Shown one piece after another: positions 14,631-28,006 of a stretch of DNA of 64,000 nt. The notes beneath the pieces were generated by a model that did not search any database, had not been told where the DNA came from, and worked only from the letters and a program-made list of their open reading frames with translations. The position numbers and the translations under genes are program-made. This stretch comes from Singulisphaera sp. GP187 (GTDB lineage: Bacteria > Planctomycetota > Phycisphaerae > Phycisphaerales > SM1A02), in the NCBI GenBank assembly GCA_945869475.1, contig CAMBOV010000011.1:1-64000 (forward strand), written 5' to 3'. How positions within the stretch are numbered: position 1 is the stretch's first letter; the number at the start of each line of letters is the position of its first letter.

Positions 14631-15356
14631 TCATGTCACGACCGCCACCTGCCCGCGCCCACCAGGCTGGTCGACAACGAGCAGCCCATCGCTCAGTCGA
14701 ATGATGCGCTGCGAGCGTTCAGCGACTCGCTCGTCATGCGTCACAAGCACCACCGTGAGACCTTGCGCGTGAAGTGCATCGATCACGTCGAGAATTGCAA
14801 CGCCCGTGGCCGAGTCAAGATTTCCCGTCGGCTCATCCGCCATCAGCACCGCGGGATTCGAGACGAGTGCCCGGGCGATCGCTGTGCGCTGCTGCTGTCC
14901 ACCCGAGAGTTCGCTTGGACGGTGGCGCATGCGATCGGTGAGTCCGACGATTTCGATCTTCTCGAGCGCGCGCTGGCGACGTTCGCGGCGAGGCACTCCT
15001 TGGTAAAGCAGCGGGACTTCAACGTTTTCGACCACACTCAGTTCAGAGATGAGATTGAATGCTTGAAAGACAAATCCGATGCGGCGGCCGCGAATATGCG
15101 AGAGCCGTTCATCATCGATCGACGCGACATCGACACCATCGAGTTTGTAACTGCCCGCCGTGGGACGGTCGAGGCATCCCAGAATGTTCATCAGCGTGCT
15201 CTTTCCAGAACCCGATGCGCCCATGATTGCGATGTACTGCCCGCTTGGAATCGCCAGATCGATTCCACGAAGGGCGTCGACCATGAACGATCCATCAGGA
15301 TGGTTGTAACGCCGACGAATTCCGACCAATTCAGCCGCGAGCGCTGGGTGCATCAT
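14631..15356 (-). CDS. ABC transporter ATP-binding protein (MacB/LolD type)
   Basis: Cytoplasmic ATPase of an exporter-type ABC system. It has Walker A GASGSGKST (about residues 46-54), the Q-loop region with FQAFNLI, signature LSGGQQQR, Walker B VLMADEPTGNLD and the H-loop VLVTHD. These are the features of the MacB/LolD/FtsE branch, which moves lipoproteins, peptides or cell-division signals at the inner membrane. The start overlaps the upstream lipoprotein stop by ATGA. No cognate permease gene is adjacent, so the partner must be elsewhere. 241 residues. Confidence 0.9.
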   Translation of the reverse strand: MMHPALAAELVGIRRRYNHPDGSFMVDALRGIDLAIPSGQYIAIMGASGSGKSTLMNILGCLDRPTAGSYKLDGVDVASIDDERLSHIRGRRIGFVFQAFNLISELSVVENVEVPLLYQGVPRRERRQRALEKIEIVGLTDRMRHRPSELSGGQQQRTAIARALVSNPAVLMADEPTGNLDSATGVAILDVIDALHAQGLTVVLVTHDERVAERSQRIIRLSDGLLVVDQPGGRGQVAVVT

Positions 15357-16084
15357 TCAATCCTAGCGAGAGGCCGGATGATCAACTCAACCTCACTGCC
15401 CTCGTGCGGAATGCGATCGGTGTCAGCCTCCCAGAGCGCTGGTGTAAACTCGACACGATCAGGGATCACCTCTTCGAAACCAATGACCTCATCGCCGAAG
15501 GTCACCAGACCGATCACTGATCCGGTGTAGTCGGCGACGTAGTGTTCGCCCGGTCCAAGCGATTTCGGATTGGGTCGAACATGCGATCCCGCAAAGACAA
15601 ACTTGTCGCGGGGAAACCCCATCGATTCGCCCGCTGGTGTCTCGCTTCGCAACCACTCGCAGATCGGCACTTCAACCTGTTCACCCGCGCGCGTAAAACG
15701 CACGAGAATGTCGAGGCGCGATCCCGTTGGGAGAATTAGGGCAAAACCGTTCGACTCACCTTCGGCGGTGAGTGACTCACGCCAACTTCCGGGTGATCCT
15801 GGCGTGCAGCCAAGTGCCAGAAGCGCGGCGTGAATGAGACGCGGCGCAACGTCGACAACGAGCAGCGACTCGTGCTCGCGGGTACCCGCCTTGCAGACAA
15901 CTTGCTCCATCCATCCAATTCGTGCGGCGACTTGCGCGCGGATAATCAGTTCGTTTCTCGTGCGATTCAATCGAATCCCGGGCGAGAGCTCGATCACTTG
16001 ATCGGGCAGGGGCGGCGTCTGCGGCACGACACATCCAGCGAGAGCCGCAACCGCAATCAGAGAGAGATACGAAAAATGCTTCAT
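15353..16084 (-). CDS. Predicted lipoprotein of unknown function
   Basis: This is a 243-residue protein with a lipoprotein signal (MKHFSYLSLIAVAALAGC) giving a lipidated Cys at position 18, followed by VVPQTPPLPDQ. The rest is soluble and lacks a family I can name. The start is the ATG at 16082-16084, which has no Shine-Dalgarno sequence and lies just after the T-tract of a strong hairpin. Its stop overlaps the ABC ATPase start by ATGA, so it is probably coexpressed with that transporter and may be an accessory lipoprotein. Confidence 0.75.
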   Translation of the reverse strand: MKHFSYLSLIAVAALAGCVVPQTPPLPDQVIELSPGIRLNRTRNELIIRAQVAARIGWMEQVVCKAGTREHESLLVVDVAPRLIHAALLALGCTPGSPGSWRESLTAEGESNGFALILPTGSRLDILVRFTRAGEQVEVPICEWLRSETPAGESMGFPRDKFVFAGSHVRPNPKSLGPGEHYVADYTGSVIGLVTFGDEVIGFEEVIPDRVEFTPALWEADTDRIPHEGSEVELIIRPLARIE

Positions 16085-16092
16085 CAAAAATT

Positions 16093-16130
16093 AAAAAAGG
16101 CCCGGCGGAGGCAAGCCTCACGCCGAGCCC
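16093..16130 (-). terminator. Intrinsic terminator/attenuator in the lipoprotein leader
   Basis: On the minus strand, a 9-bp GC-rich stem (GGCTCGGCG with CGCCGGGCC, one pair being G-U in the RNA) continues past a bulge into GAGG/CCTC. It is followed at once by TTTTTT, AA, TTTTT and then the lipoprotein ATG. The stem pairs fully only in minus-strand RNA (C/A mismatch on the other strand), which fixes its direction. A smaller competing hairpin (AGCCC with GGGCT) just 5' overlaps its left arm. This resembles an attenuator, or the end of a very short RNA. Confidence 0.7.
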
Positions 16131-16154
16131 TTCCGGGGGCTTGGTGATGGGCAA

Positions 16155-16182
16155 ATAATAGTATCAATCCGGTGAAAGTCAA
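16155..16182 (-). promoter_or_regulatory. Sigma70-like promoter upstream of the lipoprotein leader
   Basis: TTGACT (16177-16182) and TATTAT (16155-16160) are separated by 16 bp on the minus strand, five of six consensus bases at each box. The predicted start, near 16148, gives a leader of about 55-65 nt made almost entirely of the hairpin at 16093-16130. The region lies between the lipoprotein and the divergent PTPS gene. Confidence 0.65.
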
Positions 16183-16218
16183 CCTATCTATCATCCGAAA
16201 ATACTACCGATCCCTCCG

Positions 16219-17088
16219 ATGACTTTCTTCAACCCACCCAAAGCAACTCCGACCACTCTCACACGTGCCGTGCGGATTTTCGTCACGAGAGAGGTTCCCG
16301 TCGAGGGGAGTTTTCCTTGCGCGCACAATACGTATGCGGGTTTTCCATCGAGCGATACGCTCGGCGCGTGGTACGAGTGTGAGGTGAGCGTTCGGGGTGT
16401 GCCAGAGCGCAGTAGCGGATATCTCGCCGCACTCGCTGAACTCGATAGATCGGTGCGGCAAGGGGTGATACCCATTCTGCGAAGCGCCCTTTTTTGCCCT
16501 GGGTCGGAGCCTTCCCTCTCTCCGAGTGGACTGATGCCCGCAATGGCTGACGCCGTCTCTCGCCTGCTCACGCCCCGTCTCGAATCACTCTCCTTCAATC
16601 TATCCCCCTTTCATACCTACAGATGGGATCACACCATGCCACGACAGACCACCCTCGCCGCCGTGTTTGAGTTTGCTGCATCACATCGCCTCAACGATCC
16701 CACCCGCTCGGCCGCAGAGAATCACGCCTTCTTTGGGAAGTGCAACAAACTGAACGGGCACGGTCACAATTACCACCTTGAGGTCTCGGTCGCAGTCGCG
16801 AACGAGAATCGCTTCGGGATGGCACAACTCGAAAAGATCGTCGACACGACGGTGATCGAACGGTTCGACCATATGAATCTCAACATCGACTGTCCAGAGT
16901 TTCATGCGATGAATCCATCGGTCGAACACATCGCGGCAGTCTGCTTCGATGCGCTGTGCGCACCCTTCGCCGCCGCTGGAGTCGAACTACGCAAAGTGCG
17001 ACTCTGGGAGACCTCGAAGACCTCGGCAACGGTCGAAGCTGCATCGACGGCCCCGTCGACGAGCCCATCACCGACTATAGTTCTGTGA
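16219..17088 (+). CDS. queD: 6-carboxy/6-pyruvoyl-tetrahydropterin synthase with a second degenerate PTPS domain
   Basis: The C-terminal domain (about residues 140-275) is an intact QueD/PTPS fold. Zinc ligands are His156, His181 and His183 (FAASH, GHGH), the catalytic Cys175 is in FGKCNKLNG, and RFDHMNLN and a LWET ending are present. QueD makes 6-carboxy-tetrahydropterin for queuosine/7-deazaguanine synthesis; queA lies elsewhere in the window. The N-terminal half (about 17-90) looks like a second PTPS domain. It keeps FPCAH and an L-G-A-W-Y-E-C-E-V-S-V strand but lacks the HxH pair and is probably non-catalytic. 289 residues, about twice the usual size. The ATG start follows a short intergenic gap, and the stop overlaps the next gene (TGATG). 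Confidence 0.85.
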   Translation: MTFFNPPKATPTTLTRAVRIFVTREVPVEGSFPCAHNTYAGFPSSDTLGAWYECEVSVRGVPERSSGYLAALAELDRSVRQGVIPILRSALFCPGSEPSLSPSGLMPAMADAVSRLLTPRLESLSFNLSPFHTYRWDHTMPRQTTLAAVFEFAASHRLNDPTRSAAENHAFFGKCNKLNGHGHNYHLEVSVAVANENRFGMAQLEKIVDTTVIERFDHMNLNIDCPEFHAMNPSVEHIAAVCFDALCAPFAAAGVELRKVRLWETSKTSATVEAASTAPSTSPSPTIVL

Positions 17089-27896: not shown

Positions 27897-28006
27897 GGGA
27901 GGACGGCCAGGTAGCCAATGGCACGGGCGACGACGCTTATGGCTGCTGCCGTCAGGCCCTGACCAGGTTCACGAGCCGTCCGCCCATCGGACCCGACCGT
28001 CCTCCT
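27897..28006 (-). ncRNA. ffs: Signal recognition particle RNA (small bacterial SRP RNA)
   Basis: The minus strand carries the conserved SRP hairpin core: GGUCAGGGCC, a tetraloop-like bend, then GGCAGCAGCC and UAAGC, at about 27930-27965. The ends pair (GGAGGACGG with CCGUCCUCC, 27997-28005 and 27898-27906), which fixes a length of about 110 nt and thus the small 4.5S-type RNA. A six-T run (27885-27890) just after the 3' end may be the terminator. TAAGAT at 28022-28027 may be the -10 of its promoter. It lies just upstream of dnaX, as scr does in Bacillus. Confidence 0.93.

Follow-up and report, generated by a model that had tools for sequence, protein, structure and literature searches.

The minus strand between positions 16148 and 16092 of the window (the whole stretch of DNA that was analysed, 64 kb in length) most probably carries a free-standing gene for a non-coding RNA of ~57 nt, which would belong to a family found in one planctomycete order and would act in trans. 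The probability of this reading is put at about 0.72, and a free-standing regulator is considered more likely than a switch set before one gene. The promoter signal, the terminator, the covariation of the stem, the fixed seed and the independence from the downstream gene were all computed directly. According to the proposed mechanism, a sigma70-type promoter would start the RNA and an intrinsic terminator would end it, while the working part would be the fixed unpaired 5' segment, of consensus YWACYTTGCCCCCGGAAG, situated just 5' of a stable stem and used in trans. Its likeliest use would be a short imperfect antisense pairing with a G-rich RNA, the runner-up being that a protein or a companion RNA reads the fixed decamer. 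In the genome of the window some read-through into the YdjY gene, which lies 14 nt downstream, may be a side output. The features of the locus are as follows.

16177..16182, minus strand: -35 hexamer TTGACT (consensus promoter scan)
16155..16160, minus strand: -10 hexamer TATTAT, with a 16-nt spacer to the -35 hexamer (consensus promoter scan)
16092..16148, minus strand: predicted small RNA of ~57 nt, its start placed from the -10 hexamer and its end from the T run
16148-16135, minus strand: unpaired 5' segment AUCACCAAGCCCCC (predicted fold)
16131..16139, minus strand: ultraconserved CCCCCGGAA, with five C unpaired and GGAA able to pair with the U tract
16099..16130, minus strand: terminator stem-loop GGGCUCGGCG-U-GAGG-CUUG-CCUC-CGCCGGGCC, which covaries in relatives
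16086..16098, minus strand: U tract TTTTTTAATTTTT
15353..16084, minus strand: YdjY-domain lipoprotein-like gene (NF040466, 119 bits), downstream of the RNA
16219..17088, plus strand: 6-pyruvoyl tetrahydropterin synthase-type (PTPS) gene, the divergent neighbour

Promoter, terminator and predicted fold

A consensus scan of positions 15900-16400 finds a single sigma70-type site (16182-16155, minus strand), compared with a mean of 0.3 in shuffled sequences, and no second promoter in this interval, which bears out the sigma70-like promoter proposed in the preliminary description. A weight-matrix scan gives only two other candidates near the YdjY gene, composed of other hexamers and scoring 6.2 against 12.2. 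The position of the -10 hexamer predicts A16148 as the first base, and the predicted 57 nt then consist of a short unpaired 5' segment and the terminator hairpin, in agreement with the leader of about 60 nt, mostly hairpin, that had been described. The T runs at 16098-16093 and 16090-16086 lead, as was also stated there, into the ATG of the lipoprotein-like gene at 16084, 14 nt beyond the stem, and inspection of the sequence between the hairpin and this ATG reveals no Shine-Dalgarno motif.

The hairpin at 16130-16099 can be lengthened by GGAA (16134-16131) via the U tract. A fold of 97 nt has an energy of -35 kcal/mol (z -2.5), with 5 of 200 shuffles equally good; the hairpin fold by itself is only modestly unusual, and it is the conservation and covariation, rather than the fold energy, that exclude chance. 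The stem contains a U-G pair that is kept in all 30 close sequences and would give an A-C mismatch on the opposite strand, and thus it fits an RNA of the minus strand only, just as the preliminary description had claimed for full pairing of the stem.

Conservation and distribution of the family

A search for the downstream protein was positive in 56 of 61 genomes, and 30 loci were retrieved, comprising the genome of the window, 18 loci from its genus and 11 from its family. In all 30 loci CCCCCGGAAGGGC is present exactly once, upstream of the YdjY gene, within flanks that differ. Among these 30 sequences (18 distinct), eight stem pairs are invariant, six change on both sides, and one on one side only. 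In an alignment of 105 sequences (105 of the 127 listed references, hand-thinned, with L223 set aside beforehand), both-sided changes are found in 13 of the 14 pairs of the stem. Such changes are seen in 280 cells, where shuffling gives 83 on average, and the covariation score reaches 0.525 vs 0.164. The stem occurs in versions such as GGGCUCGG, GGGCGGCG, GCGCCCG, and GGCCUCGACC, each with a matching 3' arm, and the 5' decamer GCCCCCGGAAG is kept next to them. The seed positions have a predicted median unpaired probability of at least 0.98 over 157 copies. Since the loci of the pattern scan were selected for CCCCCGGAAGGGC and GCCTTTTT, and CCCCGGAA is a requirement of the copy finder, the fixed columns in those loci are partly an artefact of selection; less biased with respect to seed conservation are the 30 of 30 protein-fetched loci and the 40 model-found copies, 38 of which keep CCCCGGAA (the exceptions are L112 and L126).

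A covariance model built from the 30 loci (R1) has matches in at least 143 of the 251 genomes by which the order was sampled (88 of the misses are not individually named), including 86 of the 92 genomes of family f1 named in its table, and in at least nine of 294 genomes of a phylum sample, all of them within the same order. A broader model (R2), built from the 105 sequences, has matches in at least 58 genomes of a class sample of 347 (55 of these belong to the order) and in at least 25 of a phylum sample of 392, 24 of them from the order and the other, a weak match, from outside it. The matches of R2 in the class but outside the order comprise two weak partial ones and one convincing copy, in G587 (L355 around position 2000; 43.9 bits), where the seed and the terminator are seen in the sequence. 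All these genome counts are lower bounds, because the filters are tightened in searches of more than 40 genomes and weak matches are then lost. At the locus of the window R1 matches 16092-16142 and R2 16093-16147. When 84,980 species genomes were scanned for the exact pattern, at least 118 stretches matched; among the 80 matches listed, with taxa taken from the record titles, 71 are planctomycete (mostly Phycisphaerales or related), three come from other bacteria, and six from bacteria without a closer taxon label. The scan also shows a copy, L167, in the complete genome titled Planctomycetales bacterium ZRK34, and in G056 there are four model matches. Family f1 has mostly one copy per genome and other families up to 12. 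In G044 the similar copies L131 and L132 each follow paralogous glycosyltransferase-like genes (a name guessed from the sequence). A look-alike, ACCCCCGGAAGGGC with a terminator, lies between two tail-region-like genes of an IMG/VR phage contig (L412:2598-2650), possibly by chance.

Rfam at its curated thresholds has no match on the element, its two matches in the window being a tRNA and an SRP RNA at other positions, and below the thresholds the matches are at chance level, the best over the element having 19.1 bits against a gathering value of 33. The bacterial small SRP RNA (RF00169, 55 bits) occupies positions 27902-27998 of the minus strand. No publication was found for the exact sequence string, a literature search combining Phycisphaera with sRNA found no paper, and among the titles listed by broader searches, whose coverage leaves subscription papers largely outside, there is no description of the RNA.

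The promoter signal recurs in the relatives. The 177 non-redundant copies include 173 with enough flank, 138 of which passed a flank-identity filter, L179, L208, and L212 (with non-planctomycete titles) having been set aside before the filtering. The promoter score is above the 95% level of the copy's own shuffles in 71 of these 138, compared with one of 138 windows further upstream; the latter were taken regardless of coding content, the shuffles being the fairer control. The ends of the -10 hexamers peak 16-17 nt before CCCC, as in the genome of the window, and a second group lies at about 40-45 nt. In the 31 copies with a distant promoter (including three pairs that represent the same copy seen twice), the extra 5' stretch has a median folding energy of -10.8 kcal/mol, compared with -4.5 in shuffles, and it beats 95% of the shuffles in 25 copies (e.g. 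L326, L331, and L122). Such copies are predicted to fold into two hairpins that flank the fixed seed. In its predicted fold the copy of the window begins with a short 5' end and lacks a 5' stem-loop.

Possible partners of the fixed decamer

From the sequence we infer that the RNA is transcribed and acts in trans through a partner. The 9-mer complement of the seed, TTCCGGGGG, occurs twice in the genome of the window, as the RNA's own antisense and antisense to atpA; both sites are on the wrong strand, and hence there is no perfect 9-mer mRNA target in this genome. In G016 TCCGGGGGC is present only in the RNA itself. No recurring start-codon site was seen around the seed-complement matches in 50 loci taken from a longer list and inspected by eye. 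Upstream of start codons GGGGGC shows no enrichment, occurring once in 325 called genes (1.25-fold), the genes being those of the window and of ~400 kb of the same genome in 20 stretches, two of which overlap by 2 kb. An apparent enrichment of GGGGGC before ATG in this genome (150 vs 28 in a backward control) was rejected, as it was gone once called genes were used; the backward control also turns ATG into GTA, which makes that enrichment unreliable. An intergenic-looking repeat with TCCGGGGGC, the complement of a part of the seed, was observed in G002, G009, and G011 (L281, L282, L302, and L310-L313). A fixed decamer without a perfect transcript complement could mean that the RNA has several imperfect targets, or else that its partner is a protein or a companion RNA.

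In the latter case the decamer would be a protein-binding site, by which the RNA titrates or delivers a CsrA-like or another regulator, with pairing playing a secondary role. Such a function is a variant of the free-standing RNA, and the odds of the two overlap; taken by itself it is thought rather unlikely. It would account for ten adjacent bases being fixed though the genome has hardly any perfect complement to them, and CsrA, found in 30 of 31 relatives, might be the regulator. Hfq was found in none of 21 relatives (5 of 14 control genomes were positive), and the decamer holds one GGA. CsrA sites are GGA motifs usually preceded by A-N, and sponges of the CsrB type have many GGA motifs in loops. 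The GGA of the decamer is, however, preceded by C, it is the only one in the 57 nt, in place of the several loop-located ones expected of a CsrB/RsmZ-type sponge, and in the predicted fold its GGAA pairs with the U tract. A CsrA sponge was therefore rejected, CsrA being present but the site poor in comparison with this consensus, and Hfq dependence was rejected on account of the 21 genomes in which Hfq was not found. As for CsrA itself, the genus of the window has only a low-scoring one (about 52-56 bits), and in 12 genomes of other families its score is about 86-92 bits, nine of the 12 having a low-scoring second one as well.

Neighbouring genes, mobility and known RNAs

The preliminary description had suggested either transcription attenuation or a short stable RNA. 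In the first case the element would be an attenuator or a leaky terminator, whose hairpin sets how often the polymerase reads on into the YdjY gene, and this is regarded as improbable. A relative of the YdjY gene is found nearby in 99 of the 177 non-redundant copies, with the orientation taken from protein searches, since the greedy ORF contexts are too coarse for that. In 92 of the 99 it follows the RNA on the same strand, an order that a leader would show as well and that in this respect speaks against a free-standing RNA; the gap of 14 nt in the genome of the window and the weakness of the other promoter candidates there point in the same direction. Against an attenuator, the gap between RNA and gene in these 92 copies can be anything between -29 and 492 nt (with gene starts extrapolated from the match), and in the remaining seven copies the gene is inverted and points towards the RNA, its near end being 51-191 nt away. 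The upstream flanks of these seven are at most 38% identical, and they are counted as copies, not as inversion events. Moreover, neither the YdjY nor the PTPS gene is present in the examined stretch of 72 of the 177 copies, of which six have less than 900 nt of downstream sequence and two, L208 (with a non-planctomycete title) and L223, are doubtful. The RNA is also present in G031 and G036, which have no match to the YdjY protein (L331 of G031 has the PTPS gene and the RNA, and no YdjY gene), and six genomes of family f4, G039, G043, G047, G051, G055, and G059, have the protein and no match to the RNA. The RNA without the gene, the gene without the RNA, the inversions, and the variable gap together indicate that the two are separable. 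Their adjacency is likely to be ancestral, as it is found in f1 and in a part of family f6.

The structures needed for attenuation find little support either. The small competing hairpin at the 5' end that had been noted (GCCC/GGGC) can indeed be drawn, but it is outcompeted in the predicted ensemble, and none of its pairs changes on both sides in the 105 sequences, its 5' arm ignoring the changes of the 3' arm; attenuation by this hairpin, the one candidate competing helix, was rejected for want of covariation. The 57 nt contain no leader ORF starting with ATG, and Rfam searches recognise no sensor in them, nor is the ultraconserved part one that would be expected to switch. A sigma70 promoter signal before the YdjY gene is absent in the 53 loci with a gap of at least 100 nt, but 158 ordinary genes of the window's genome equally have none, and for this reason the absence is uninformative and was not used. 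Transcription attenuation is thus largely unsupported, and what survives of it is read-through, which is possible in the genome of the window, where the YdjY gene may live on it, since the other promoter candidates near this gene are weak. The short stable RNA, by comparison, agrees with the promoter signal, the terminator, the deep conservation, and the many copies without the gene.

In one genome the RNA gene seems to be linked with a mobile element. G067, a single contig, has six copies (element loci L360, L361, L105-L109, and L103) with ~85% identical upstream DNA, which ends at the T run of the RNA. According to the greedy ORF contexts, five of the six are preceded, at a distance of 57-65 nt, by the end of a gene of 467-469 codons. 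The one compared with Pfam belongs to the tyrosine recombinases (phage integrase family), and its DNA aligns with that of the others. As the shared DNA stops at the T run, the RNA gene forms the end of the integrated element in G067, where it might be taken for an attachment site or for a passenger. These six copies, five of them with a recombinase-type gene, and the look-alike between phage tail-region genes might suggest that the RNA gene in general is only a conserved kind of intrinsic terminator, or a site of DNA attachment that has no role as an RNA. This is highly improbable, because a terminator could do without an invariant CCCCC beyond its stem and without a promoter of its own at a favoured spacing, and across f1 the element is mostly single-copy and lies beside ordinary chromosomal genes.

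Several known systems resemble the free-standing RNA in part. With transcription attenuators and terminator leaders it shares the order of promoter, short leader, terminator, and gene; it differs from them in having no supported switching structure and in that the gene behind it is sometimes absent or turned round. RoxS/RsaE of Firmicutes have a short unpaired C-rich segment that pairs with G-rich RNA near ribosome sites. The likeness to them lies in the C-rich unpaired segment, and only by description, GGGGGC not being enriched at starts here. The closest likeness is to Yfr1 of cyanobacteria, an RNA of 54-69 nt occurring throughout the group, with an ultraconserved undecamer left unpaired between two stem-loops (PMC2190773). 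In the related Yfr10 family the Yfr1 motif is shared, and structure and synteny are looser (PMC6778093). The predicted two-hairpin planctomycete copies have the same plan as Yfr1, supported in 25 of the 31 distant-promoter copies, whereas the window's own copy differs in its predicted lack of the 5' stem-loop. The Yfr1 undecamer, ACUCCUCACAC in the same source, is unrelated to the decamer found here and absent from the element, and Yfr1 belongs to a different phylum. Thus, by its sequence and predicted structure the planctomycete RNA is built most like Yfr1, yet it is not a member of the Yfr1 family, because the motif differs. The Rhodopirellula-1 motif, a published planctomycete candidate RNA for which the table entry shows no Rfam accession, enters the comparison by its description alone (PMC2864571).

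The element is best regarded as a candidate for a new small-RNA family of a known kind, for which the anatomical case, as read from the sequences, is sound. It may be speculated, with considerable doubt, that planctomycetes without Hfq use it as a global regulator RNA, in which the decamer would be read by a dedicated protein or by a G-rich companion RNA, the hairpins would be free to change, and integrases would have spread some copies into families of paralogous small RNAs. The case illustrates that a sequence looking like a leader with a terminator can be a separate gene, and a ten-base core that is fixed, mostly single-copy in one family, and multiplied elsewhere offers a handle on post-transcriptional control in planctomycetes.
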